This document shows positions 477-52,925 of a stretch of 64,000 nt of DNA, in pieces (position 1 is the first letter of the stretch; every line of letters begins with the position of its first letter). Position numbers and translations under genes: made by a program. Origin of the DNA: Tritonibacter scottomollicae (GTDB taxonomy: Bacteria; Pseudomonadota; Alphaproteobacteria; Rhodobacterales; Rhodobacteraceae); the NCBI RefSeq assembly GCF_003003215.1, contig NZ_PVUF01000001.1, positions 310,001 through 374,000 of the forward strand, in the 5' to 3' direction. Below the pieces are notes generated by a model that was not told where the DNA came from, searched no databases, and saw only the letters and a program-made list of their open reading frames with translations.

Positions 477-956
477 TTAGCCGGCGCAATAGAACATGTA
501 GCGGCCTTCGGGAATGTCCGCCGGTCCGTCGACCTCGGTGAAGCCCACCAGCGGCTGGCCGGAGATGATCAGCCCGCCCGGCGCCATGACCTGAGAAAGC
601 GCTGGCGACAGTTTCGCCGCCTCCGCCACGTCCTTCTCCTTGACGCCAAAGCCCAGATCGTAATGCGCCAGCGCCAGACGGTGTCCGCCCTCGGCCAGTC
701 GGGCCAGCATCGGCTCCGCTTCGCCTTGCAGGAAATTCTCCTCCGGCGGCACGCAGGACGGATGGCATTGCAGCACCCGGTCGATGACCCAGATGCGCCG
801 TTCGGACAGAACCTCGCGCAGGTGGTCATAGGTGCGCCCGTTGCCTAGTCCGAGGTCGAGCACATCACCGGCAACGTCGGAAATCGCCTCCGCAGCCCAA
901 TTGAGCCCGTCGCGTTGGGCGGTGAGGCGGCGCAGCATGCTGTCCAGTCGGCTCAT
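477..956 (-). CDS. Class I SAM-dependent methyltransferase
   Basis: A 159-residue protein. Residues 32-42 (VLDLGLGNGRT) form the glycine-rich SAM-binding motif I, and IWVIDR at 55-60 fits the second beta strand that ends in an acidic residue, so a compact Rossmann methyltransferase fold is supported. The methyl acceptor cannot be read from the sequence. It is the last gene of the seven-gene glycosyltransferase operon: its ATG at 956 lies one base after the stop of the deacetylase gene, which implies translational coupling and suggests it methylates a product or intermediate of that pathway. It is short for the superfamily, with no additional substrate domain visible. Confidence 0.85.
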   Translation of the reverse strand: MSRLDSMLRRLTAQRDGLNWAAEAISDVAGDVLDLGLGNGRTYDHLREVLSERRIWVIDRVLQCHPSCVPPEENFLQGEAEPMLARLAEGGHRLALAHYDLGFGVKEKDVAEAAKLSPALSQVMAPGGLIISGQPLVGFTEVDGPADIPEGRYMFYCAG

Positions 957-957
957 C

Positions 958-1716
958 TCAGCTGATCCTTTCGTTGAAGCGCCAGGGATGCGCGGGACCG
1001 GCCAGCAGGCGGGTCAGGAGGGTTTCGCAGAACTCCCACACCTGATCGTCATGCACAAGGTGATGTGTCAGCAGGCCCAGCGGCTCTGCGCGATCCTGCG
1101 CACCGGCGCGCCGGGCCTCAAGGTTTGCCACCAGCCGCGCGAGGATCTCATCTTCGGCGGCCAGACCCCGGCTGCCCTTCCAGTCGATCGGGTCCACATG
1201 AGTGTTGATCTGCATCAGCCCCGGCGCAGCCTGCACCCGCTTGCGCGGCCCATAGGTGGAGAGCGCGGCAAAGCCGAGGCCCGCCAGCCAGGGCAGCATC
1301 GCGGGCGAGATCCGGTTCCAGGGCGGCACGAACATCGGCTGCAGGGAGGCTCCGAACAGCTGTTTCAGTCGCTCCATGCCGTCTTCGGCATCCGCAAGCG
1401 CCTGATCCACTGGCCGGGTGCTCGGAAATTCGCATTTCTTCTTATCGGCACCGGCGTGGTTTTGATGGGCCCAGCCATGCACCACCGGCACCAGATGGCT
1501 CGATTGCTGCACGGATGTCGCAAGATCCGCCACCGCGCCTTCGGGGATCACCGCAAGATGCACTGGCAGATCAAGCTGCGTGGCCAGGGCCTCCAGCCGG
1601 ACCAGCGCGTCGCTGGGGGCAATCGCATCGTCATCCCGCCACCAGAGCGGCAGGCGCAAATCCTGCGCGGTCCAGTGTTCCAGCTCCGCGTCCAGCGCGT
1701 TCCAGCCGTGTGTCAT
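958..1716 (-). CDS. Polysaccharide deacetylase family protein
   Basis: A 252-residue protein of the NodB/polysaccharide-deacetylase (CE4-like) superfamily. The motif WRDDDA (26-31) supplies the catalytic/metal Asp pair, HGWAHQNH (80-87) matches the HxxxH metal motif, and FVPPWNR (129-135) matches the conserved RxPW/PPW motif. There is no signal peptide, so it probably acts in the cytoplasm on an intermediate rather than on finished polymer. The frame is open upstream to a TTG at 1740, but the ATG at 1716 is preceded by GGGGGAGA and is preferred. It sits inside the glycosyltransferase operon, 20 bases after the upstream stop. It likely deacetylates an N-acetylated sugar made by the neighbouring enzymes; the true substrate is unknown. 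Confidence 0.85.
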   Translation of the reverse strand: MTHGWNALDAELEHWTAQDLRLPLWWRDDDAIAPSDALVRLEALATQLDLPVHLAVIPEGAVADLATSVQQSSHLVPVVHGWAHQNHAGADKKKCEFPSTRPVDQALADAEDGMERLKQLFGASLQPMFVPPWNRISPAMLPWLAGLGFAALSTYGPRKRVQAAPGLMQINTHVDPIDWKGSRGLAAEDEILARLVANLEARRAGAQDRAEPLGLLTHHLVHDDQVWEFCETLLTRLLAGPAHPWRFNERIS

Positions 1717-1736
1717 CCGATCTCCCCCGTTTGCGC

Positions 1737-2876
1737 TCAAGCGCGCTGCCTCCCCAGCAGCGATGCCGCAATCTCCACGCTGCGGCGCGCCCCGTCAAAT
1801 TCAAACCCGTCAAGGCTGCGTTGCGTGTCCTGCATGACTTGGTGCAGGGCGGCGCAGAGGCGATCCGGGGTGAGGGTGGAGGTGGGTTCGACCGCAAAGC
1901 CGGGCAGGGGAGCGAGGCTTCGGGCGCGCAGGGATTGCTCCACCTCCTTGCCCGCATCAAAGGGCACCAGCACCGCAGGGGTGCCCGATTGCAGCAGGTC
2001 GAGGGCGGTGTTGTACCCGCACATGCTGACCGAGGCCGCCGCATGGGGCAGCATGGCGCGGAAATCGGGGCGGGCCGGTTCCAGAAGAGCCGGCGAGGTC
2101 GGGTCCGAGAGCTGAGTGATGCGTGCCGCTGCATCTGATCCGCCGACCAGAATGCGCCAGATATGGTCCGGCATCGCCTTGGCCGCCTGCACCGCGCAGG
2201 CATAGAGCGCATCCCCCACGCCGCCGCCACCGGCGCTGACGAGAATCTCTCCCTTGCCGGCGCCCTCCGGATGGGGCCTGGCAGCCGGGGGCGCGACATA
2301 GCCGGTGTAGTGCAACTTGCCCGCCAGCAGGTCGGAAACCGGCCAGCTGGTGTCCAGCGTGGTGGCCTTCGGATCCGAATGCACCAGCACGCCGTCGTAG
2401 AATTCCGCGATCATGGCGTCTGCGTCCTCGGCCTTTTTCGGCTTTGAGGGCGGGGCAAGGATGTCGCGGATCGAGGACAGCACCAGGGGTCGGCGGGGCA
2501 GGTCCTTGGCGGCCTCCAGCAGGGCGCGGAATTCAGCGCGCAGGGAGCGGCGGCCGAAGGGATAGAGTTCGGTGATCAGCACATCCGGCTGCAACGATTG
2601 CAGCAGGGTATTCAGGTGATTGCGGCGAGCGCTGTGGTAGGCGTCATCGGCAACGGCGCCGTCCTTGTCCAGCAGGCGGGCGAAGTCCACGCCGTCAGAG
2701 CGCAGCGGCGGCAATTGTTCGAAGGCAAGCCCGTGGGTGGGGAGCTGCGGTGCAGGAAAGCCGCCAGAGGCGATGGTGACGTGATGGCCAGCCTCGACAA
2801 AGGCGCGCCCCAGCGTCAGCGCGCGGGACAGATGGCCGGTGCCCAACAGATGCGTGACAACGATCAGGACATTCAT
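1737..2876 (-). CDS. MurG-like (GT28-type) glycosyltransferase
   Basis: A 379-residue GT-B glycosyltransferase. The N-terminal GTGHLSRA loop (12-19) is the glycine-rich acceptor-domain motif of MurG/GT28 proteins. The C-terminal half has an SAGGGG loop and CGYNTALDLL...GTPAVLVPF, the nucleotide-sugar binding region. No transmembrane segment is visible. Its ATG at 2876 overlaps the stop of the phosphatase gene in ATGA, so the start at 2876 is preferred over longer readings. It is related in architecture to the first gene of the operon (5795-7015). It probably adds one sugar in an unknown glycan or glycolipid route; donor and acceptor are not deducible. Confidence 0.85.
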   Translation of the reverse strand: MNVLIVVTHLLGTGHLSRALTLGRAFVEAGHHVTIASGGFPAPQLPTHGLAFEQLPPLRSDGVDFARLLDKDGAVADDAYHSARRNHLNTLLQSLQPDVLITELYPFGRRSLRAEFRALLEAAKDLPRRPLVLSSIRDILAPPSKPKKAEDADAMIAEFYDGVLVHSDPKATTLDTSWPVSDLLAGKLHYTGYVAPPAARPHPEGAGKGEILVSAGGGGVGDALYACAVQAAKAMPDHIWRILVGGSDAAARITQLSDPTSPALLEPARPDFRAMLPHAAASVSMCGYNTALDLLQSGTPAVLVPFDAGKEVEQSLRARSLAPLPGFAVEPTSTLTPDRLCAALHQVMQDTQRSLDGFEFDGARRSVEIAASLLGRQRA

Positions 2877-3457
2877 GGCGTGCGTTTTTCCAACCTGACA
2901 GGCTCGTGCCAAGGGGTCAGGGTGGCCCCGTCGACCTCGACCACAAACAACCGGTTGCGTTTGACCTGAAACGGCGCCGGGCCGTCGAAATTCCAGCTAT
3001 GGGCGCGGGCGAGGATCATACGCATGATGCCGATATGACAGACCGCGACGCTGTCGCGCTCCAGGCTGTCGATCCAGGGGCGCAGACGGTCCCAGACCTC
3101 CGCCGGGGTTTCGCCGCCGGGGGGGCGATAGTCCCAGCCCCAGTGTTCGATGTCGCGAAAGCCGCTGCCTGGGTCGGCGCGCAGGCGGGTTCCGTGCTGG
3201 CCCTCCCAGTCGCCCCAGTTCATCTCGATCAGGGCGGGAGAGGTGCGCGGCGCACGGCCCGTGACCAGACATGCGGTCTCGTCCGCGCGCTGCAGCGGGC
3301 TGGACCAGAGGTCGGCCTCTTGCCAGTCCTCGGGCAGGGCCTGGGCGGCGAGTTCCGCGCGGGCAGTGTCATCCAGCGCGATGTCGCTGCGGCCCTGGAT
3401 GCGCCCTGCGCGATTCCAGGCGGTATGGCCATGGCGCAGGAGGGCGAGTCGGATCAT
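2873..3457 (-). CDS. Histidine phosphatase family protein
   Basis: A 194-residue histidine phosphatase (phosphoglycerate-mutase/CobC superfamily). LLRHGHTAWN (6-15) contains the RHG catalytic motif with the phospho-accepting His9. SSPLQRADETA supplies the second arginine region, and the late CHIGIMR supplies the second catalytic histidine context. The start at 3457 overlaps the upstream stop in ATGA. Within a glycosyltransferase operon, a phosphatase of this type would fit removal of phosphate from a sugar-phosphate or glycosyl-glycerate intermediate. That role is inference from context; family members range from metabolic mutases to signalling phosphatases. Confidence 0.85.
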   Translation of the reverse strand: MIRLALLRHGHTAWNRAGRIQGRSDIALDDTARAELAAQALPEDWQEADLWSSPLQRADETACLVTGRAPRTSPALIEMNWGDWEGQHGTRLRADPGSGFRDIEHWGWDYRPPGGETPAEVWDRLRPWIDSLERDSVAVCHIGIMRMILARAHSWNFDGPAPFQVKRNRLFVVEVDGATLTPWHEPVRLEKRTP

Positions 3458-4557
3458 GCCGGATGATCCAGCAGCGGAGTCAGCGCTGACCATAGCGTGT
3501 CGCGTGCGGCGGGTCTGAGGTGGCGCGTGGCGATATGATCCCGCGCCCGCCGCCCCAGATCGGCGCGTTCTGCTGCGCTGTCGAGAAGGCGCGCAACCTC
3601 CTCCGCCAGCGCTGCCGCACCGGCGTGCGGGGCGGGGTAGGCGCCGGGCAGCAGCACATCGCGCAGGCCGGGGCGGTCTTGCGCGACCACCGGCAGCCCA
3701 TGCGATTGCGCTTCGAGATAGACCATGCCGTAGGCCTCGTTGACACCGGGCCAGAGGAACAGCGAAGCGCTACTGTAGGCCTCTGCCATGGACGCGCCAT
3801 CAAGCTGACCGAGGAAGCGCACGCGATCGCCAAAGGGGGCGACAAGCGCCTCGACCTCGGCGCGCGCGGGGCCGTCGCCCGCAATTTGGAGTTGCCAGTC
3901 GACCGCGCGCCCTGTTGATGCCTTGGAATCAAGTTGGCGCAGGGTCTCGGCGATAAGCGCATAAGAGGCCAGCTTGTCCCCCTGTCGCATCATCCCCGCC
4001 GCCAGCATCGGCCCGTCCAGCGTGCCGGGGGCCGGCAGATCGCTGCGGGACAGGAAGGGGCGCAGATGCACCAGCTGCTGATCCCCGGCGCGATCCCGTT
4101 CCAGCGTTTCGCGGTCCTGATCGGTCAGGTAGAAAATCACCGCCGCCTGATCCGCGGCCGCATGGGCGGCTTGGGCAAATTCCGCCCACGGCCCGATCAG
4201 CCGTTTGGCTGCGCGGGTGCTTTCGATCTGGACGTAAGGGATATCGCGGGCGGCGGCCACGGCGGGGCCGATCAGGTCGGGCGCCTTGTAGTAATTGTGA
4301 TAGGTGACCCAGAGGTCGATCGGGGGCAGTTCCTCGACCAGGCGGCCCACCTCATCGGCGGCGCGCTGTTGCAGAATCTGCTGGTGGACCGGGTCGCCAA
4401 GCTTGTCGTGCAGGCGCAGGTCAGAGGCCAGCACGACCTCCGCGCCGCCCTCCTGCAGCAGCCCCATCAGGCTGCGGCCCATGGCCCGATCACCGGAGGG
4501 CGTGGCGTGGCTGGGGGCCTTCATCGGCGCGTAGAAGGCAACGCGGGGCTGTGTCAT
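3454..4557 (-). CDS. Glycosyltransferase family 4 protein
   Basis: A 367-residue GT-B enzyme of family 4 type. The C-terminal domain has the expected donor-binding stretch FLWPGVNEAYGMVYLEA followed by HGLPVVAQDRPGLRDV, with the E-x7-E-like acidic pair of GT4 enzymes (EAYGMVYLE). The N-terminal domain carries the YHNYYKAPD and HLRPFL segments. No membrane helix is seen. Start and stop both sit in four-base ATGA overlaps with the neighbouring genes, so this is a coupled operon member. Donor sugar and acceptor are unknown. Confidence 0.85.
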   Translation of the reverse strand: MTQPRVAFYAPMKAPSHATPSGDRAMGRSLMGLLQEGGAEVVLASDLRLHDKLGDPVHQQILQQRAADEVGRLVEELPPIDLWVTYHNYYKAPDLIGPAVAAARDIPYVQIESTRAAKRLIGPWAEFAQAAHAAADQAAVIFYLTDQDRETLERDRAGDQQLVHLRPFLSRSDLPAPGTLDGPMLAAGMMRQGDKLASYALIAETLRQLDSKASTGRAVDWQLQIAGDGPARAEVEALVAPFGDRVRFLGQLDGASMAEAYSSASLFLWPGVNEAYGMVYLEAQSHGLPVVAQDRPGLRDVLLPGAYPAPHAGAAALAEEVARLLDSAAERADLGRRARDHIATRHLRPAARDTLWSALTPLLDHPA

Positions 4558-5798
4558 TCTGCGGTCCCGAGCATGGCCGACAGGCGCGTGTTCAGCTGCG
4601 CGATGCCGGGGGGCATGGTGAACTCTGCACGCAGGCGCGCCAATGCGGCATCCGCCATGCGGGTTGCCTCTTCCGGGGCGTGGGCAAAGCGCAGCATGGC
4701 ATCGGCAAGGGCGGCGGGCGCGTCATCGGACAACAGCCCATGGGTGCCGCTTTCGATGAACTCCGGGATGGCGGAGACCGGGGTGGAGAGGATCGCCAGC
4801 CCCTGCGAGGCGGCCTCCATCAGCACGTTCGGCAGCCCGTCGCGGTCGCCATCGGCAGCCACGCGAGAGGGCAGCACAAAGAGATCGGCGGCGCGCATGG
4901 CGGCGATCACCTCGGGCTGGTCGCAGGCACCGCGCCAGGTGATGCGGTCCGCAACACCTGCATCCTCGGCCATGCCCTGCAACAGATCCCTCAGGCCGCC
5001 GCCACCGATATGGGTCCACTGCCAGTCCAGGTCTGCGGGCAGCAGCGCCAGCGCGGCGATCAGCCGGTCAAAGCCCTTTTTCTCCACCAGTCGGCCCACC
5101 GACATCATGTGAAACGGGGCGTCGGGCGTGCGCGGGATACGCTGCGGCGGCGCGGGAAAGCGGGACAGGTCGAGGCCGTGATAGATCAGATCCACCGGGG
5201 TGCCGTCGGAGAGGTCCTGCAGGTGTTTTGCACCAAACCCGGTGCAGGTGGCACCAAAGGCTGCGCCATGGGTCTCGGTCTTGAGCTTTTCGCGCAGCTC
5301 CCATTCGGGCGAGGTCCAGATGTCCTTGGCATGCGCGGCAAAGCTCCACGGCAGGCCGCGCATGATGGCGGCGTAGCGCGCCACGGAGGACGGCGTGTGC
5401 AGGAAATGCGCGTAAAGACCACGGACCTCGGCGGGCAGTTCGCAAGCCAGCACGCAGGCCTGACCAAAGCGGCGGATGCGGTTATGGCTGGGATCGCGCC
5501 TCAAATCCGCGCGCCAGACCGCGTAGGCGGTCGCATAGCCGGGCAGGGTGCGCGCAGTCTCGCGCGCGCGGGCGACGCGGGCGGGGTCATCGTGCAGATA
5601 TTCCGGCAGGTAGTGTACCGGCGCCTGCAGGCGGTCGTGCAGCGGATGGGTCTTGGTGTCGGTGGGATGGCGCAACGACCAGATTTCAAAGGGTTGGCCA
5701 GCCTCTTCGAGCGCCACCAGCTCCTGGGCGATGAACGTCTCGGACAGGCGCGGCCAGCCCTTGACCAGCACGGCAAGCGCCGGGCGATGTGATGTCAT
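4554..5798 (-). CDS. Glycosyltransferase family 4 protein
   Basis: A 414-residue GT4-type glycosyltransferase. LSETFIAQEL near the N terminus is typical of the GT4 group that acts in exopolysaccharide and glycolipid synthesis. MSVGRLVEKKGFDRLI marks the start of the donor domain, and DGLPNVLMEAASQGLAILST gives the conserved nucleotide-binding acidic pair. It overlaps both neighbours by ATGA. Together with the other three glycosyltransferases it implies sequential assembly of at least a short oligosaccharide. No polymerase, flippase or export gene is present nearby, which points to a small glycan or glycolipid rather than a large exported polysaccharide. Confidence 0.87.
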   Translation of the reverse strand: MTSHRPALAVLVKGWPRLSETFIAQELVALEEAGQPFEIWSLRHPTDTKTHPLHDRLQAPVHYLPEYLHDDPARVARARETARTLPGYATAYAVWRADLRRDPSHNRIRRFGQACVLACELPAEVRGLYAHFLHTPSSVARYAAIMRGLPWSFAAHAKDIWTSPEWELREKLKTETHGAAFGATCTGFGAKHLQDLSDGTPVDLIYHGLDLSRFPAPPQRIPRTPDAPFHMMSVGRLVEKKGFDRLIAALALLPADLDWQWTHIGGGGLRDLLQGMAEDAGVADRITWRGACDQPEVIAAMRAADLFVLPSRVAADGDRDGLPNVLMEAASQGLAILSTPVSAIPEFIESGTHGLLSDDAPAALADAMLRFAHAPEEATRMADAALARLRAEFTMPPGIAQLNTRLSAMLGTAE

Positions 5799-7015
5799 TC
5801 TGCGGCCTCACGCGGCAATTGGTGCAAGAGAGTGTCGACGCGCCCGGTCACGTAGTCGAGCCCGTCCAGAAGCCCGTCGGAGATCGCCTGCGACGGGCGG
5901 GGTTGCCGCTCCAGCGCACGAATGGCACCGATCATGGCCTGCGGCGTCCAGCCGTCGCGGGTTTCGTCAAGCATGGTGACAAGTCCCAGTTCCTCGGCGC
6001 GGCTGGCGCGGATCCATTGTTCGAGACGCGGCGTTGTGCGCGGCACGATCACCGCCGGTTTGTCGAAGGACAGAACCTCGCAAAAGGTATTGTAGCCCCC
6101 CATGCAGATCACCCCCTGCGCACCGGCGAAGAGCGTTTCGATCTCGCTCTCGAAGCCGACGGCGGTGACGCGCCCGTCCAGTGCGGCCACACGATCCTCG
6201 AAGGCCGCGCGCGTCTCGCCGGACAGGAACGGCCCGTAGACCAGCACCGCGCGCGGCATCAGATCGGGGTCACGTTCGTAGGCGGAAATCGCAAGGTCCA
6301 CCATCATGGCGCCATCGCCACCGCCGCCCGGAGTGATCAGGACATAAGGTCGCTCGGGCGGTTCGCCTACAGTGCCAAGATCGCGGCGCAGGTATCCGGT
6401 CCAGTGCATCCGCGCCTGAGCCGCCGCGCTCAGATCAAGCCCGGCGGTGGGGTCGTAGACATCGCGCAGCCCATACACCCAGATTTCATCGTAGAATTGT
6501 TCCGCCGCCGCCAGTGCGCCCTTGCGATCCCATTCGGCGCGGAGCACTTCGGGTTCGTCCAGCACGTCGCGCAGGCCGAGCACCAGCTTGGCCTTGCCCT
6601 GCTGTTGCAGCAGTTCAAGCGTGGGCAACAGCTCGCCGCGAAAGCCGCAGGGTTCCTTGTCCACGACAAGGATGTCCGGGGCAAACTGTTCGGCGGTGGA
6701 GCGGATCAGCCCGGCACGCAGTTCGGTGGTTTCCTCGATATTCATGCCCATGGTGCGGCTGGCGTAGGACCCATCGGAGCGTTTGATGACGCCGGGCAGA
6801 CGCATGTGATCGACCCGGTTCGGGAAAGCAAAGCGCCCCGCCACCGGCGAGCCGGTCAGGATCATCGCAGAGGCGGTGCGATCCGCAGAGGTGATCGCGG
6901 CGGCCAGGGCACGAGAGCGGCGCAGATGTCCCAGCCCGAAGGTGTCGTGGCTGTAGAACAGGATGCGCGGTCCGCGTCCCGAGGGGCCCAAACGGGCGGG
7001 GGTGCTGGCGCTCAT
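5795..7015 (-). CDS. MurG-like glycosyltransferase, first gene of operon
   Basis: A 406-residue GT-B protein. FYSHDTFGLGHLRRSRALA carries the glycine-rich GLGHLRR acceptor loop. VLITPGGGGDG and CMGGYNTFCEVLSFDKPAVIVPR are the donor-binding loop and the E/N sugar-binding region of GT28-like enzymes. The frame is open to an ATG at 7189, but family-like sequence begins at the ATG at 7015. No strong Shine-Dalgarno is visible at 7015, so the start is less certain than others. It is the promoter-proximal gene; the promoter should lie in 7016-7430, divergent from the mechanosensitive channel gene. Confidence 0.83.
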   Translation of the reverse strand: MSASTPARLGPSGRGPRILFYSHDTFGLGHLRRSRALAAAITSADRTASAMILTGSPVAGRFAFPNRVDHMRLPGVIKRSDGSYASRTMGMNIEETTELRAGLIRSTAEQFAPDILVVDKEPCGFRGELLPTLELLQQQGKAKLVLGLRDVLDEPEVLRAEWDRKGALAAAEQFYDEIWVYGLRDVYDPTAGLDLSAAAQARMHWTGYLRRDLGTVGEPPERPYVLITPGGGGDGAMMVDLAISAYERDPDLMPRAVLVYGPFLSGETRAAFEDRVAALDGRVTAVGFESEIETLFAGAQGVICMGGYNTFCEVLSFDKPAVIVPRTTPRLEQWIRASRAEELGLVTMLDETRDGWTPQAMIGAIRALERQPRPSQAISDGLLDGLDYVTGRVDTLLHQLPREAAE

Positions 7016-7430
7016 AGGGGGACTCGCTTGCAAGTGGGGGTCGGGCGTGGTGACGGGCGGTGTCCTCCTGCGGAGGTGGTCCCATGCCACGAGGCGGCGT
7101 GGCGCCGCGTCGGGAGGGATGTGCAGCACCCGGATTGGGTGATGCAGTGCGTCTTGGCCATATTCCGCCCCAACGTCATGCGGGCGCACTCCTGATCAGC
7201 GGCGGAGCGCGGCCGGATTTCCCATGCCTCTGCGCCGGGTCTGCTATGGCGCGGTGAACACGCAGCGCCGACAACCCGAGCAATTAAACACGGGTGATAT
7301 AGCTTGGCTGGCGCGCTCATGCAATCAAACCAATGAGATCCGGGCGCCATCCGATACGCAAAAGCGATACTTGCCGCCCGTTTTTGCCTAATGTGGTGAG
7401 AAAATCACCCAAGGAAAGGGGACGCGACGC
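7016..7430. other. Divergent intergenic region
   Basis: About 415 bases separate the glycosyltransferase operon (minus) from the mscS-type gene (plus). It should hold both promoters. AAGGAAAGGGG at about 7413-7423 is the ribosome-binding site of the channel gene. I could not pick out a confident -35/-10 pair and see no small gene. Confidence 0.4.
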
Positions 7431-9767
7431 ATGCCAAGCCTGATGATTGTTCTACGCGCGTGGCTGTTGACGGCCATGATGAGTCTGCTTGTCGTCGGGG
7501 CGGCGCAGGCGCAGGACAGTGTTGCCGTCGAGGGGGATGGACTGGCAGAGGCCATCCGCCAAGCCTCCGAGGCCGGGGTTGGTGTGGTGATCCTGGACGG
7601 TCGCGGGCGTCCGCTGAGCGAAGCCGCTGCGCGCGCGGACGCCGAAGCGGAGATGGCAACGGAGCCTGGCGTCATGGGCGGCGCATCGACGATGATGAAG
7701 GCCCAGACCGAAGTGCGTGATTTCCGGGCCAAGCTCAACGAGCGTCTGGCAGCGCTGCCCAATTCCTACAATGAGATGGCCTATATCCTGCGTGCCACCA
7801 GCCCCGACGGGCGCATCATGACCTTTGTCGAGGTGGTGATTGTTACCACGGTGCTGCTGCTGATCGGGCGCTGGCTGTCGACTGAAATCTACGGCAAGCG
7901 GCTGATCAAGCGCTTCGTGGTCAGCCGGATCGAAGACGCGCCAGAAGGCTACGCTGGCAAGATGCCCTTCCTGCTGATCCGCTTTGGCGCCGGTCTGGGC
8001 GCGACGCTGTTCGCGATGATCTTCGCGCTGCTGGTGACGCTGCTGGTCTTTGGAGCATCCGGTGATGTTTCGGTCGAGTTCACCTCGCTTGCGGTCTATC
8101 TGACCTTCTTTGCCGCGCGCACCCTCTCTGATCTGTGGCGCATGGTGCTGTCGCCTTATCTCAGCCAGTACCGTATCCCGTCGCTGGGGGACCGGGAGGC
8201 GCGGCGGCTTTATTTCTGGCTGTCGGGGTTGGCGACCTTTGATTTTGCCGCGGTCATGGTTGCAACCTGGGTGCAGGACTTCGGCCTCAACTACAACATT
8301 TACGCGCTGACCTATGCCATTCTGATGCTGGCGTCCTCGGTGCTGGCGATCCTGCTGGTGCTGTTCAATGCCCGGGCCATCTCCGGCGCGATCATGGGCT
8401 CCGGCCCGCGTGCTGCCGTGGCCTGGCCGATCCGCCTGTTGTGCTGGATCTGGGCGCCGCTGGTGATCCTGTATGTTGCCTTCGGCTGGCTGGCTCTGAC
8501 CTTTGATCTGGTCCTGGAGAACCCAAGTCCTGTGCCGCCCACGATGGGGCTGTTCGCGGTGATGACCTCGATCTTGGTGGTCTATGGGCTCACCAATTAT
8601 GTGATCGAGCAGTTCGGCACGCACCGTCGGGTTCTTGTAGCGGAGACGGCCTCCGATGACTGGGATGATCGCGTTGACGAGGGCGAGGCCGCTGCGCATG
8701 AACGACCAAAGCACCCGATCGCAACCTTTCGGGATCTTGCCCGCCGGGCGGCTGGCATATTGGCGTTTCTCGTCGGTGCGGTGTCGCTGATCTATGTCTG
8801 GGATCCCGAGTTCTCGCTGCAGGATGCTCCGCGGCTGGACCGGGTGATCGACGTGCTAGTGATCCTGTTCATCGGCTATCTGGTGTTCCATGTCGCGCGC
8901 ATCTGGATCGACAGCAAGATCGAAGAGGAGACGCAGGATCAGCCGGAAGGGGAGCTGGGGGATGAAGGCGGTGGCAGCAGCGCCAGTCGGCTGGCGACCC
9001 TCTTGCCGCTGTTCCGTGGGGCTATCCTGGCCGTGGTGGTGGTGACCATCATCCTGATCGTGCTGATGGAGATCGGCATCAATGTCAGCCCGTTGTTCGC
9101 CGGCGCCGGTGTGGTGGGTCTGGCAGTTGGCTTTGGCTCGCAGACCCTGGTGCGCGATATCTTCTCGGGCGCTTTCTTCCTGATCGACGATGCCTTCCGG
9201 CGCGGCGAATACATCGACATCGGCAGCGTCAAGGGCACGGTGGAGAAGATTTCCGTGCGCTCGTTCCAGTTGCGCCATCACTTGGGCGCCCTGCACACCA
9301 TCCCGTTTGGCGAGATCCAGGTGCTGACGAATTACTCCCGCGACTGGGTGATCATGAAGCTGCCGCTGCGGGTGACCTATGACACCGATGTGGAGAAGGT
9401 GCGCAAGCTGATCAAGACTCTCGGCAAGGAGCTGTTGCAGGATGAGGTGATCGGCCACAACTTCATCCAACCGCTGAAGTCGCAGGGCGTGATCGAGATG
9501 CAGGATTCGGCGATGATCATCCGGGTGAAGTTCATGACCAAACCGGGCGATCAGTGGCTGGTGCGCAAGAAGGTGTTCCAGGAGATCCGTGACCTGTTCG
9601 AGCGCGAAGGCATCAAGTTCGCGCACCGCGAGGTCACCGTGCGGGTGGTCGACGACAGTGGCGAGAAGGTCGCCCCGGCCAAGCGCGATGCAGCGCTTGG
9701 GGCGGCGCAGGCGGCGATCGAGGATGATCTGATGGATGCCAATGATGGCGGCGGCGACGACCGCTGA
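7431..9767 (+). CDS. Mechanosensitive ion channel, large MscS family
   Basis: A 778-residue inner-membrane protein. Residues 1-28 look like a signal peptide (cleavage near AQAQ), followed by a short periplasmic region with a possible coiled segment, then about ten hydrophobic segments. The pore-lining TM3 and beta domain occur late: GVVGLAVGFGSQ...VRDIFSGAFFLIDD is the hallmark MscS signature, followed by the cytoplasmic alpha/beta domain, ending in a charged tail. The length and N-terminal extension resemble MscK/YbdG-type large members rather than the 286-residue E. coli MscS. It would open on hypo-osmotic shock, relevant for a marine organism. A good AAGGAAAGGGG ribosome-binding site supports the ATG at 7431. 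It is monocistronic. Confidence 0.93.
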   Translation: MPSLMIVLRAWLLTAMMSLLVVGAAQAQDSVAVEGDGLAEAIRQASEAGVGVVILDGRGRPLSEAAARADAEAEMATEPGVMGGASTMMKAQTEVRDFRAKLNERLAALPNSYNEMAYILRATSPDGRIMTFVEVVIVTTVLLLIGRWLSTEIYGKRLIKRFVVSRIEDAPEGYAGKMPFLLIRFGAGLGATLFAMIFALLVTLLVFGASGDVSVEFTSLAVYLTFFAARTLSDLWRMVLSPYLSQYRIPSLGDREARRLYFWLSGLATFDFAAVMVATWVQDFGLNYNIYALTYAILMLASSVLAILLVLFNARAISGAIMGSGPRAAVAWPIRLLCWIWAPLVILYVAFGWLALTFDLVLENPSPVPPTMGLFAVMTSILVVYGLTNYVIEQFGTHRRVLVAETASDDWDDRVDEGEAAAHERPKHPIATFRDLARRAAGILAFLVGAVSLIYVWDPEFSLQDAPRLDRVIDVLVILFIGYLVFHVARIWIDSKIEEETQDQPEGELGDEGGGSSASRLATLLPLFRGAILAVVVVTIILIVLMEIGINVSPLFAGAGVVGLAVGFGSQTLVRDIFSGAFFLIDDAFRRGEYIDIGSVKGTVEKISVRSFQLRHHLGALHTIPFGEIQVLTNYSRDWVIMKLPLRVTYDTDVEKVRKLIKTLGKELLQDEVIGHNFIQPLKSQGVIEMQDSAMIIRVKFMTKPGDQWLVRKKVFQEIRDLFEREGIKFAHREVTVRVVDDSGEKVAPAKRDAALGAAQAAIEDDLMDANDGGGDDR

Positions 9768-24558: not shown

Positions 24559-27500
24559 GTGCCCAGCCGCAAGATCTTCGGAGTCCTTCCCATAGAACGC
24601 ACGCTTTTCCAATTCATCTGGAAGTACTCCAAGCGTGACCAGCTGATTCTCCTGCTGGTCACCGCCTGCCTGTTTCCGCTGCTCTATCTGACGCTGGAGC
24701 TGCCCAAGCGCATCATCAATGACGCCATCGGTGCTCAGTCCTCCACCGTCGAGGTTTGGGGGCAGCAGTTCGACCAGCTCACCTATCTGTGGATCCTATG
24801 CGGCGCCTTCCTGCTGGCGGTGCTGGCGCATGGCCTGACCAAGATGCGCATCAATACCATGAAGGGCGTGCTGGCCGAGCGCATGTTGCGCCGTTTCCGC
24901 TACAGCCTGATCGCCCGTGTCCTGCGATTCCCGCAGCCCTATTTCGAGCGCACCAGCCAGGGCGAGCTTGTCTCGATGATCACCTCCGAATCCGAGCCCA
25001 TGGGCGGGTTGATGGGGGATGCGGTCAGCCAACCGGTGCTGCAGGCGGGTCAGATGCTGACCATCCTCTATTTCTTGTTTGTCCAAAACCTGTGGTTCGG
25101 GCTGGCGGCGGTGGCGCTGATCCCGCTGCAGGGCTGGCTGATCCCAATGCTGCAGCGGCGCATCAACCTGCTCAACAAAAAGCGCATCCAGCAAGTGCGT
25201 GCATTGGCCTCCGAGATTGGCGAAAGCGCGGCGGGGGCATCGACCCTGCGCGTCAACGGCGGCTGGCGCTACCGCATGGCGCGGGTGACGGATCGGCTGG
25301 GGCATCTCTACGAGATCCGCTTCGACATCTACCAGAAGAAATTCTTCATGAAGTTCCTCAACAACTTCATCACCCAGCTGACGCCGTTCTTCTTCTATGC
25401 GGTGGGCGGTTATCTGGTGCTGGAGGGCAAGGTCTCGCTCGGCGCACTGGTGGCGGCGCTGGCGGCCTACAAAGATCTGGCCTCGCCTTGGAAGGAACTG
25501 CTGACCTATTACAACCAGACCCAGGACATGGGGCTGCGCTGGGAGGTGATCCTGGAGCGGTTCGCGCCGCCGGACATGGTGGACGAACGCCTGATGCAGG
25601 GCGAGCCGGAGGAGCTGCCGCATCTGGCCGGCGACATCGTACTGGACGGGGTCAGCGTGCGCGACGCCGACGGCAATCTGGTGCTGGAAGAATTGTCCGC
25701 GACCTTCCCCAAGGGCGAGCTGATCGGCATTGCCGCCCCGTCGGAAGAGGACCGCCGCGCCCTGGCCGAGGTGCTGACCCGCGAGGTGCTGCCCGCCTCC
25801 GGCACGGTGACACTGGCGGGCTACGGCATTCGTGACCTGCACCAGATGGTGCTTGCCACTCGCATCGGGCATGCGACTTCGCGCCCGGCGCTGTTTCAGG
25901 GGTCTTTCGGGGAAAACGTATTGATGCCGCTGCGCATCCGGCCGCTGGAAGATCCCACCGATCCACGGGCGCAGCGCGACGCGATCCGGGCGGGCAACAG
26001 CGCCGATCCGTTTGGGGTGAACTGGGTCGATCCGACGATCGCCGGTTTTGAAAAGTCGGACGAACTGCGCGAGTGGTGGCTGCGCATCGTCGAGGGCATT
26101 GGTTCGGACACCGCGCTTCTGCGGCGCGGCATGGATCAGGTTTTTGTGAGCAGTGAGCATCCACAACTGGCCAATGCGCTGGTCAAACTGCGCCCACAGG
26201 TGCAGCAGGCCCTGATGGACGCCGGGCTGGATGCCTTTGCCCATTTCAACAACCGTGAATATTACAACCCGACGCTGCCGGTGGTGGAAAACCTGCTTTA
26301 TGCGACGCGCTCTGTGCCCATCACCTTTGAACTGCTGCGCGAACAGCATGACTTTTTGCAGACCGTGCGCCGCATTGGACTCGACACCGATCTGGTCAAT
26401 CTGGCGCAGGACGTGCTGGAGATGCTCCGGCAGATCTTCGGCATGGATGGTACGGTGCATCCTCTCTTCCGCAAGCTGGGGCTGGAAGCATCGGATTATG
26501 AGGCGGCATTGCAGCTGTTGCAGAAGGTGAAATCCAAGGGCGCGGAGGCGCTGGACCCGGAAGAGCTGGCGCAGATGATGATCGTGCCTTTCTCGATCTC
26601 TGCCGAGGCGCTGGGACCGGCCTTCAGCACCGAGATCGAGGATCGCATCCTGTCCTTGCGTGACAGTCATGGGCGTGAATTGCTGGACACGCTTGATGAC
26701 ATCTTCGTGCCGCTCAGCAAGAGCGAATTTGCCCCCGGTTTCACGGTGTTGGAGAATGCCATCTTCGGCAAGATTTCCGACAGCGCCGGGGCGCGCGTCG
26801 AGGATCTGCGGCGCGCAGTCGCCGAGGTGATCGACAAGGCAGGCGTGCGCGAAATGGTGGTGGAGCTGATTTTCGAGCTGCCGGTCTCCGTTGGCGGCCA
26901 GGGGTTGGGGCAGAGCTTTGCCGAGCCGCTGGCCTTCTGCCGGGCCTCAATCAAACGCCCGGACATCCTGATCCTCGACAGTGCCTTGGCCAGCTTTGAT
27001 CGCGACACCCGCCGGGCGATGCAGGACAACCTGCGGGACCTGCTGCCGGACACCACGCTGATTTTCCTCGAGCCTGCCTTTCGCGACCCCGACCGGTTCG
27101 ATCACTACTTCGAGATGCGCCAGGGCCGCCTGAAGGACGAACGTGCCGATGTGCGTGAGGCTGTCGATGAGGACAGCGCCGCGGCGGCGGACCTGTCGCG
27201 CAAGCTGCGCGCCTTGGAGAGCACCGAACTTTTCTCCGGTCTCAATCGTCGTCAGCTGCGCCTGCTGGCCTTTGGGGCGCGTTGGTTCGAGGCCACGCCG
27301 GGCACGGCAGTGTTCCACAAGGATGATGCGGCCACCGACGGCGCTTATATGATCATCGAAGGGGAGGCGGGGCTCTACCTGCCCGCCGAAGACGAGGGCG
27401 CGGAGGGGCAACTGATTGCCAAGGTCGGCCCCGGCCGCCTGGTGGGCGAGTTGGGCCTGATCCGCAAGGAACCCCGTGCCCTGTCGATGATCGCCGAAAG

Positions 27501-27612
27501 CGACCTCACCTGCCTGCGGATCGGTGAGGAGGAATTCCTCGCAGTGGTGGAGAACGACGCCAACACGGCCTTCAAGCTGCTGCAGGTGGTTGCGGGCTAC
27601 GTTTCCAGTTAG
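24559..27612 (+). CDS. ABC-exporter-like protein with degenerate NBD and cNMP-binding domain
   Basis: A 1017-residue protein. Residues about 20-330 are an ABC type-1 exporter membrane domain (six hydrophobic segments, with PQPYFERTSQGELVSMI as the coupling-helix region). The NBD begins near 365, but Walker A reads GIAAPSEEDRRAL (about 389), without GK[ST]. The signature (about 776) reads VGGQGLGQS. Walker B is ILILDS with Ser in place of the catalytic Glu, and the H-loop is FLEP. About 390 residues separate Walker A from the signature, so a roughly 250-residue insertion is present. Residues about 890-1017 are a CRP-like cyclic-nucleotide-binding fold. The start is GTG at 24559 without a strong ribosome-binding site. 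It is likely a sensor or scaffold rather than an ATP-driven pump. Confidence 0.85.
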   Translation: MPSRKIFGVLPIERTLFQFIWKYSKRDQLILLLVTACLFPLLYLTLELPKRIINDAIGAQSSTVEVWGQQFDQLTYLWILCGAFLLAVLAHGLTKMRINTMKGVLAERMLRRFRYSLIARVLRFPQPYFERTSQGELVSMITSESEPMGGLMGDAVSQPVLQAGQMLTILYFLFVQNLWFGLAAVALIPLQGWLIPMLQRRINLLNKKRIQQVRALASEIGESAAGASTLRVNGGWRYRMARVTDRLGHLYEIRFDIYQKKFFMKFLNNFITQLTPFFFYAVGGYLVLEGKVSLGALVAALAAYKDLASPWKELLTYYNQTQDMGLRWEVILERFAPPDMVDERLMQGEPEELPHLAGDIVLDGVSVRDADGNLVLEELSATFPKGELIGIAAPSEEDRRALAEVLTREVLPASGTVTLAGYGIRDLHQMVLATRIGHATSRPALFQGSFGENVLMPLRIRPLEDPTDPRAQRDAIRAGNSADPFGVNWVDPTIAGFEKSDELREWWLRIVEGIGSDTALLRRGMDQVFVSSEHPQLANALVKLRPQVQQALMDAGLDAFAHFNNREYYNPTLPVVENLLYATRSVPITFELLREQHDFLQTVRRIGLDTDLVNLAQDVLEMLRQIFGMDGTVHPLFRKLGLEASDYEAALQLLQKVKSKGAEALDPEELAQMMIVPFSISAEALGPAFSTEIEDRILSLRDSHGRELLDTLDDIFVPLSKSEFAPGFTVLENAIFGKISDSAGARVEDLRRAVAEVIDKAGVREMVVELIFELPVSVGGQGLGQSFAEPLAFCRASIKRPDILILDSALASFDRDTRRAMQDNLRDLLPDTTLIFLEPAFRDPDRFDHYFEMRQGRLKDERADVREAVDEDSAAAADLSRKLRALESTELFSGLNRRQLRLLAFGARWFEATPGTAVFHKDDAATDGAYMIIEGEAGLYLPAEDEGAEGQLIAKVGPGRLVGELGLIRKEPRALSMIAESDLTCLRIGEEEFLAVVENDANTAFKLLQVVAGYVSS

Positions 27613-52819: not shown

Positions 52820-52874
52820 TCTGTTGAAGCTATAGATTGACCCAAGGAGTGAGCGCGCCTACTGCGTTCTACAT

Positions 52875-52925
52875 CGCCGCCACAACGGCTTCCTGACGTG
52901 GCGGACTTCATTTAGCGGAGCACAT
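52875..52925 (+). promoter_or_regulatory. SAM/SAH riboswitch upstream of metK
   Basis: A 7-bp stem CCGCCAC/GTGGCGG (52877-52883 with 52898-52904) encloses AACGGCTTCCTGAC, matching the conserved loop of the SAM/SAH class (Rfam RF01727), which is reported upstream of metK in Rhodobacterales. GGCTTC (52887-52892) can pair with GGAGC (52917-52921), which is the metK Shine-Dalgarno, ten bases before the ATG. Ligand binding would hide the ribosome-binding site and lower MetK translation. Confidence 0.85.

Follow-up and report, generated by a model that had tools for sequence, protein, structure and literature searches.

An alphaproteobacterial family of ABC exporter-fold proteins combining a degenerate ATPase with a cyclic-nucleotide-binding domain, and its possible role in surface-glycan export

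The window, the 64,000-nt stretch of DNA analysed here (bases 310001-374000 of contig 1), belongs to the 4.68-Mb genome of Tritonibacter scottomollicae, whose near relatives are Tritonibacter mobilis and Ruegeria sp. TM1040 (about 92-93% protein identity). It carried a gene for an ATP-binding cassette (ABC)-like protein with an exporter-type membrane domain, a nucleotide-binding domain (NBD) interrupted by an insert, and a cyclic-nucleotide-binding (cNMP) domain (Table 1). The start codon was uncertain, as the GTG at position 24559 had no clear ribosome-binding site when judged by eye; the start of the family consensus near residue 11-12 and a mean predicted local distance difference test score (pLDDT) of 41 for residues 1-10 also bear on this point. 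A Pfam search matched ABC_membrane at residues 51-301 (E 2.3e-19), indicating an exporter membrane domain, and the AlphaFold2 model and its Foldseek comparison, in which ABC exporters were the fold match, agreed with the intact membrane domain claimed in a preliminary description of this DNA. No C39 peptidase was matched in the protein by Pfam, and in the model the first membrane helix began at residue 16. ABC_tran appeared only below threshold (residues 376-468, E 0.012, 16.7 bits against a cut-off of 25). In a phmmer search against PDB chains, PCAT1 aligned to residues 71-456 and, separately, to residues 772-859, which indicates that both NBD halves are present with something in between; MsbA as well as PCAT1 was matched in sequence by the membrane domain and the residual NBD halves. 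The whole-chain AlphaFold2 model, predicted with 67 family sequences in the alignment, had a mean pLDDT of 89.6 and a predicted template-modelling score (pTM) of 0.80.

The catalytic residues were compared by aligning 177 distinct full-length family rows (59 clusters at 60% identity) with five canonical exporters from the organism's own genome; these positive controls all possessed GK[ST], LSGGQ, DE and H. Left out were 32 partial open reading frames (ORFs), and a few included rows were cut at locus ends; 90 of the 177 rows were close relatives of the window protein, and L138 and L152 were two cut-outs of one protein from genome G493, counted twice. The window protein had lost the Walker A lysine, all three Walker A glycines, the signature and the catalytic glutamate, so that the dead ATPase of the preliminary description was borne out, including the loss of GK[ST] from Walker A (aligned segment APSEEDRR) and the change to Ser at residue 808. 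The signature was degenerate as described, although the aligned motif was LGQSF (residues 783-787) and not the VGGQG segment chosen before; the H-loop histidine was lost too, but the column held E or P, the alignment being ambiguous by one residue, rather than a definite Glu. The complete set of five catalytic residues (K, S/T, D, E, H) occurred in none of the 177 rows and four of the five in three rows. The Walker A lysine column held K in 44 and R in 119 of the 177 rows, and Ser/Thr followed it in six, the combination K[ST] being confined to two rows that were cut-outs of one protein. The position of the Mg-coordinating Ser/Thr was occupied by Asp or Glu in 39 of the 59 cluster representatives, Walker B D and E occurred together in 4/177 rows, and the D-loop Asp was kept in 52/59 representatives. 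A proper Walker A elsewhere in the 390-residue segment between Walker A and signature was not seen, since the aligned column was degenerate and Pfam found no ABC_tran in residues 469-912. The window protein therefore appears by sequence to be a dead ATPase, and the loss of catalytic residues appears to run through the family; as to the ABC-exporter class, the predicted membrane domain qualifies, whereas a competent NBD, a defining feature, is by the same alignment lacking. A second full-length copy in the same genome (contig C9, 43220-46219; loci L002 and L210), 49% identical over residues 12-1017, was likewise degenerate, and had no match to the glycan cluster described below within the 19 kb read around it.

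The interval spanning residues 456-776 measured 304-403 aa (median 320) in the 177 rows versus 34-39 aa in the five controls. A large insert inside the NBD was thus real, although its size was about 280 extra residues by alignment rather than the roughly 250 estimated before. Modelled alone by AlphaFold2 (residues 458-776, 63 sequences), it was predicted to fold by itself (pLDDT 92.7, pTM 0.86). Profile-profile comparison with hhalign of 37 non-overlapping segment pairs gave a single strong pair, copy A and copy B of a duplicated module (probability 98.6, P 1.4e-15, 74 columns); the next-best pairs (P 3e-5 and 5e-5) involved an ENLL-like segment beside the Q-loop, followed by one at 3e-4. In the consensus, both copies contained an ENLLFG/DNILFG segment resembling the one after the Q-loop, represented in the window protein by ENLLYA and ENAIFG. 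Six residues beyond the membrane domain were invariant in the alignment, namely R545 and N578 in copy A, R701 and N733 in copy B, G737, which also lies in the duplicated modules, and G415, while the membrane domain itself had 15 invariant residues. The insert had no fold match in the PDB at E<=0.001 and no sequence match there below E 0.5; together with the absence of any Pfam match in residues 469-912, this led to rejection of a known foreign domain as its origin. Judged by position, copy B seems to continue into the helical subdomain that precedes the signature in a normal NBD, and the helical subdomain may have been duplicated and then rebuilt into a platform.

The CRP-like sensor domain closing the chain proved to be a family trait. 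Among the 177 members, the cNMP domain was fused in 103, encoded by a downstream gene in 58 and absent in none, with too little flanking DNA in 16, so that it was present in 161/161 members with enough flanking DNA (at least 700 nt downstream); in the 59 cluster representatives the corresponding numbers were 12, 39, 0 and 8. In the window protein the phosphate-binding-cassette-like segment VGELGLIRKEPRALSM retained both Glu and Arg. Cassettes like VGEIAILCDVPRTATV were found in 45 of 57 rows for separate cNMP proteins, a set in which 11 rows gave no pattern or one in the wrong place and L099 was half of a broken fused copy. Spacings, of which 55 lay within the retained range of -300 to 1500 nt, were 102 nt or less in 52 cases, and lean short because the nearest possible start codon was used. 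Fusion was found in Rhodobacteraceae and a few other lineages, with two changes on the tree; L138 had been labelled separate only because its locus ends early, and after relabelling it as fused, its pair with L119 would still leave fusion appearing twice. Stop codons inside some distant homologues were considered as possible readthrough sites and rejected: where examined, the ABC-like ORF ended and a separate cNMP ORF followed. In L099, from a metagenome-assembled genome, the family gene was split by a stop near residue 550. The cNMP-binding domain is shared with CRP/FNR regulators, but their C-terminal DNA-binding helix-turn-helix was not matched by Pfam in the window protein or in the separate 151-aa cNMP protein of locus L164.

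Family matches (E<=1e-40) were present in 78 of 240 sampled Alphaproteobacteria genomes, a few of them partial and cut by contig ends (G163, G202, G220). In a phylum-wide sample 17 of 249 genomes matched, 16 belonging to the same class and the exception being a membrane-domain match only. A family gene 71% identical was also found in a record titled Nocardioides marinus (L037), which is probably mislabelled or contaminated. In six pairs with near relatives, the ratio of nonsynonymous to synonymous substitution rates (dN/dS) ranged from 0.014 to 0.257 across all domains, the insert and the two NBD halves among them, these ratios being rough because dS exceeded 1 in many comparisons. The membrane domain had the lowest dN in four of the six pairs and ranked fourth of the five parts in pair L015. 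Since dN/dS was well under 1 in all domains, the gene, judging from these substitution rates, is maintained under purifying selection and not decaying; the 177 distinct full-length copies and the same ratios led to rejection of a pseudogene or sequencing artefact. Relatives consisting of the membrane domain only, about 330-440 aa, were encoded at nine loci (L200, L201, L202, L203, L204, L205, L207, L208 and L209; L206, cut by a contig end, was set aside), and Pfam found no NBD in the four scanned (L200, L202, L203 and L205). Four of these loci (L201, L202, L205 and L209) had clustered neighbours in common, named by eye as multicopper oxidase, CopB-like, PCu(A)C-like and cytochrome proteins, which resemble copper resistance genes; an exporter domain devoid of NBD in such loci is odd in itself.

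Genes of a glycan cluster occupied positions 477-7189 of the window, 17.6 kb from the ABC-like gene, with an MscS-type channel and then a CoA transferase and an ABC importer, named after the TM1040 annotation, in between. The same arrangement, with RefSeq names, was found in Ruegeria sp. TM1040, where the MscS channel was annotated as well. When 20 loci picked by hand from the family matches were compared together with three plasmid loci, a recurring, mostly divergent cluster emerged, comprising the GT28-type glycosyltransferase b (GT28b), GT4b, GT4a, histidine phosphatase, GT28a, a polysaccharide-deacetylase-like protein, a small protein with no Pfam match and an OppDF-type ATPase. Glycosyltransferases were present in 15 of the 20 picked loci, and a Methyltransf_17 gene lay downstream of the cNMP gene in many of the loci compared. 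GT28b was detected in 77 of the 240 genomes and shared with the ABC-like family in 74, while 159 possessed neither gene (Fisher's p 7e-53, shared ancestry ignored). The two genes shared a contig in 58 genomes; in 50 of the 74 they lay no more than 2 kb apart, and 48 of these 50 pairs were divergent; the GT28/GT4 linkage in the window and TM1040 was looser. No other polysaccharide exporter was recognised among ten genes of the L164 cluster and eight of the window, two and one of which, respectively, had no family name. Far from the ABC-like gene, a SAM/SAH riboswitch (Rfam RF01727, 60.4 bits) was located at 52874-52922 on the plus strand.

Table 1. Features of the ABC-like gene and the linked glycan genes in the window
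Feature	Position (nt)	Strand	Basis or remark
Whole gene: exporter-fold membrane domain, degenerate NBD with internal insert, cNMP domain	24559..27612	+	1017 aa; ORF confirmed real
Type IV (ABC-exporter) transmembrane domain, residues 12-345	24592..25593	+	Pfam ABC_membrane, AlphaFold2 helices, Foldseek to ABC exporters
NBD N-terminal half, residues 352-456	25612..25926	+	Sub-threshold ABC_tran, phmmer to PCAT1, alignment
Degenerate Walker A, APSEEDRR, residues 393-400	25735..25758	+	Aligned to GPSGAGKT of five canonical same-genome exporters
NBD insert and remnant of normal helical subdomain, residues 458-776	25930..26886	+	Length versus controls, own model
Duplicated module copy A, residues about 545-619	26191..26415	+	hhalign, A versus B
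Duplicated module copy B, residues about 701-774	26659..26880	+	hhalign, A versus B
NBD C-terminal half, residues 777-865	26887..27153	+	Second phmmer stretch to PCAT1, residues 772-859
Degenerate signature, LGQSF, residues 783-787	26905..26919	+	Aligned to LSGGQ of the same five exporters
Walker B LILDS, residues 804-808	26968..26982	+	D807 kept, catalytic Glu replaced by S808 (alignment)
cNMP domain, residues 913-1000, with phosphate-binding-cassette-like VGELGLIRKEPRALSM	27295..27558	+	Pfam PF00027 cNMP_binding, 1.1e-14
Glycan cluster: Methyltransf_17	477..956	-	Pfam 2.5e-73; same family adjoins cNMP gene in L164
Glycan cluster: polysaccharide-deacetylase-family protein	958..1740	-	TM1040 annotation name; no Pfam match at 0.001
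Glycan cluster: GT28-type glycosyltransferase a	1737..2912	-	
Glycan cluster: histidine phosphatase	2873..3493	-	
Glycan cluster: GT4 glycosyltransferase a	3454..4557	-	
Glycan cluster: GT4 glycosyltransferase b	4554..5798	-	
Glycan cluster: GT28-type glycosyltransferase b (GT28b)	5795..7189	-	
MscS-type mechanosensitive channel beside glycan cluster	7431-9767	+	

A homologue with degenerate motifs (Walker A GGTSGGGEAL, Walker B FNQ) was found in Sinorhizobium meliloti; in strain 1021 it lies on pSymB at 841.7-844.9 kb. The gene order in an annotated strain, from a table that omits some genes, was nodP2/nodQ2-like, sulfotransferases, PIG-L deacetylase, aminotransferase, sulfotransferase, glycosyltransferase, MscS channel, GT4, polysaccharide deacetylase, MBL-fold, DUF3095, nucleotide-sugar dehydrogenase, adenylate/guanylate cyclase, polysaccharide lyase, ABC importer, GT4, glycosyltransferase family protein and S-adenosylmethionine-dependent methyltransferase genes, then the ABC-like gene, a Crp/Fnr-like cNMP gene and an FkbM methyltransferase gene. 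In the available parts of two papers, smb21247 is given as a deacetylase, smb21249 as a sulfotransferase, smb21250 as a glycosyltransferase and smb21257 as a truncated adenylate cyclase, while smb21248 is an aminotransferase in one and a "pilin glycosylation protein" in the other (PMC5498481, PMC12542648). As the products of smb21247-smb21250 and smb21257 fit this gene order, the homologue should fall within smb21252-smb21271, a placement that relies on gene order and product names. For the phazolicin-protecting polysaccharide (PPP), an uncharacterised envelope polysaccharide, nine genes of the range smb21252-smb21271 are reported to be needed; insertions in PPP genes lowered fitness with phazolicin, and cyaA was depleted in the same screen, according to the accessible text of that study (PMC10128002). 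An adenylate/guanylate cyclase-domain gene and a DUF3095 gene were observed inside the PPP region (pSymB CP140944.1, 904494-905843 and 907618-908820), and might possibly be a local source of a nucleotide signal. Identity of the homologue with msbA2 was considered and dropped, msbA2 being smb21191, a member of an operon whose first gene is at about 938 kb, versus 842 kb for the homologue.

The domain anatomy, family-wide catalytic loss, duplication, purifying selection, cNMP pairing, and co-occurrence and adjacency of glycan genes were observed directly; dimerisation, ligand, substrate, direction, energy source and transport as such are what we infer from them. The reading preferred here is that the protein acts as an ATP-independent, nucleotide-gated flippase or export-licensing factor for a PPP-type surface glycan, to which a probability of roughly 0.45 is assigned. 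Two copies would assemble into a type IV exporter-like dimer, in which the former motor would neither bind nor hydrolyse Mg-ATP and would serve as a rigid cytosolic coupling platform enlarged by the duplicated helical modules. The cNMP domain, which is part of the chain in the window protein and the product of the next gene in many lineages, would dock on this platform. Its binding of cAMP or another nucleotide would clear the way for the glycan that the GT28/GT4 enzymes make, whether lipid-linked or free, and translocation would be powered by the proton motive force or the glycan's own gradient. It falls a little short of an even bet that the protein belongs to a broadly distributed alphaproteobacterial exporter-fold family that has given up ATP hydrolysis while serving a conserved surface-glycan pathway. 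The more specific history, in which an exporter was converted into a second-messenger-gated glycan flippase by silencing of the motor, duplication of the helical subdomain into a regulatory platform and transfer of control to a cyclic-nucleotide receptor, is conceivable from the sequences although doubtful. Taken together, the data suggest a new ATP-independent way to control sugar export.

Several observations weigh against this flippase or licensing role. The MscS channel and an Opp importer are also near the cluster, glycosyltransferases were not nearby in five of the 20 picked loci, and GT28b was missing from four of the 78 family genomes and present in three genomes that had no family match. 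Seven of the 106 fused rows did not show the cassette pattern (L002, which is the second own-genome copy, L108, L149, L150, L178, L184 and L199), a count restricted to rows without any match, some matches in other rows being in wrong places. The insert was the fastest-evolving part in six of six pairs. Regarding the S. meliloti system, the accessible text states that the minimal inhibitory concentration for a cyaA mutant changed little and that relA insertions were enriched, opposite to cyaA, and does not state the place of the ABC-like gene among the nine PPP genes (PMC10128002). Moreover, the homologue was frame-shifted in the records of strains 1021 (L222, pSymB 815000-852000) and ml66 (L174) and a single open frame in those of 2011 and ml46; the frame shift may reflect sequencing error or real variation. 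The cNMP domain of HetC, an ABC exporter of Nostoc, is reported in the part of the source available to bind ppGpp and to give no signal with cAMP (PMC10986499). Finally, the catalytic residues were retained unevenly, with Lys in 31 and catalytic Glu in 25 of the 59 representatives, and one G493 protein kept K-S and D-E while having no His in the H-loop column. Erosion is therefore graded, with the window branch toward the more eroded side, and from these residues nucleotide binding may survive in some members.

Such survival is the starting point of an improbable alternative, in which the NBD binds nucleotide in an unusual manner (no Mg, or another base) and, jointly with the cNMP domain, senses the energy charge. 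The retained Lys and Glu, the D-loop Asp in most representatives and the ABC_tran match of the L164 protein (1.1e-19) are in its favour, but the window protein lacks the lysine, the three Walker A glycines and the signature, and an acid beside the lysine should repel phosphates. Still less probable is pairing with a canonical ABC half-exporter encoded elsewhere, giving a degenerate site as in TmrAB or TAP. Pairing of a degenerate with an active site is described as common in type I ABC exporters in the accessible part of one source (PMC7756269), and the five canonical exporters of the same genome could offer candidates. However, the two family copies of this genome are both degenerate, none of Walker A, signature, catalytic Glu and H-loop survives in the window protein, a large insert occupies its helical subdomain, and no canonical half-exporter above 60 bits was seen beside the gene in the fetched loci, many of which were short. 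In these loci, family pieces and the five own-genome controls set aside, ABC-type ORFs above 60 bits matched the profile only from position 349 and hence have no membrane domain, and the importer near the S. meliloti and TM1040 genes was annotated as a complete set, which counts against a partner role; the partnership with a functional ABC protein put forward in the preliminary description thus found no support next to the gene.

That description had also offered a non-transporting sensor or scaffold. In its present form, which is somewhat unlikely, the protein moves nothing; it tethers the GT28/GT4 enzymes to the membrane, and whether synthesis runs depends on its nucleotide-bound state. The missing catalytic set in every row agrees with this, as does the location of five of the six invariant residues beyond the membrane domain within the duplicated modules, as a binding platform predicts, and the encoding of the cNMP protein by a separate gene in 58 of 161 members. 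Constraint on the membrane domain (lowest dN in most pairs, 15 invariant residues) speaks for transport instead. Because the two scanned clusters contained no other recognisable polysaccharide exporter, and because membrane-domain-only relatives are kept elsewhere, some in loci resembling copper resistance, transport is favoured over a scaffold; with the co-occurrence of glycan genes in 74 of 78 genomes added, the non-transporting reading is less likely. A decaying transporter, its NBD vestigial and heading to a membrane-domain-only form, is highly improbable: such relatives exist, and residues kept by many other representatives are missing from the window branch, but dN/dS is far under 1 in the NBD halves and insert, and the tree, unsure owing to long branches, sets the membrane-only group outside the NBD-bearing family. 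The observation made in the preliminary description is accordingly confirmed and its interpretation partly supported.

ABC proteins with one dead site are already well known. If the protein does move a glycan, ATP is not indispensable to the working or gating of an exporter fold, and control can pass from the motor to a cyclic-nucleotide receptor. PPP, for which a role in protecting rhizobia against an antimicrobial peptide has been proposed, would gain a candidate exporter and a direct second-messenger input, whereby the reported cAMP link becomes testable. In the open-licence PMC literature, no description was found of this protein or of such a broadly kept, catalytically incomplete family with a constrained membrane domain.

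The type IV exporters MsbA and PCAT1, to whose kind the glycan flippase PglK also belongs, resemble the window protein in the sequence of the membrane domain and the residual NBD halves, and the predicted model matches the ABC exporter fold. In contrast to them, it has no functional Walker A, signature, catalytic Glu or H-loop, and its family adds the insert of about 280 residues with the duplicated module and a C-terminal or separate cNMP domain. The SLiPT proteins SbmA and BacA have a membrane fold akin to that of ABC exporters and are not known to carry an NBD-like region or a cNMP domain, whereas the NBD halves are present in the window protein. SLiPTs offer a parallel for ATP-independent transport, which is established in them as proton-driven rather than ATP-driven, although they import peptides, according to the accessible text (PMC10128002). 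In TAP, CFTR, BSEP and Pdr5, one site has a replaced Walker B Glu, Walker A Lys, signature and His, as described in the part of the source available (PMC7756269); these proteins retain one competent site, whereas no row of the present family, own-genome copies included, has the complete set. For the PPP locus smb21252-smb21271, in which the S. meliloti homologue is placed, the accessible account covers the locus and its phenotype but makes no mention of the degenerate ATPase or sensor of this protein. HetC is similar in being an ABC exporter whose cNMP domain is required for function, but differs in that this domain is N-terminal, and in possessing a C39 peptidase and an essential ATPase catalytic residue, as far as the available text goes (PMC10986499). 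By analogy, the window protein would work most like a motorless hybrid, part degenerate-site ABC exporter and part cNMP-regulated exporter of the HetC kind.

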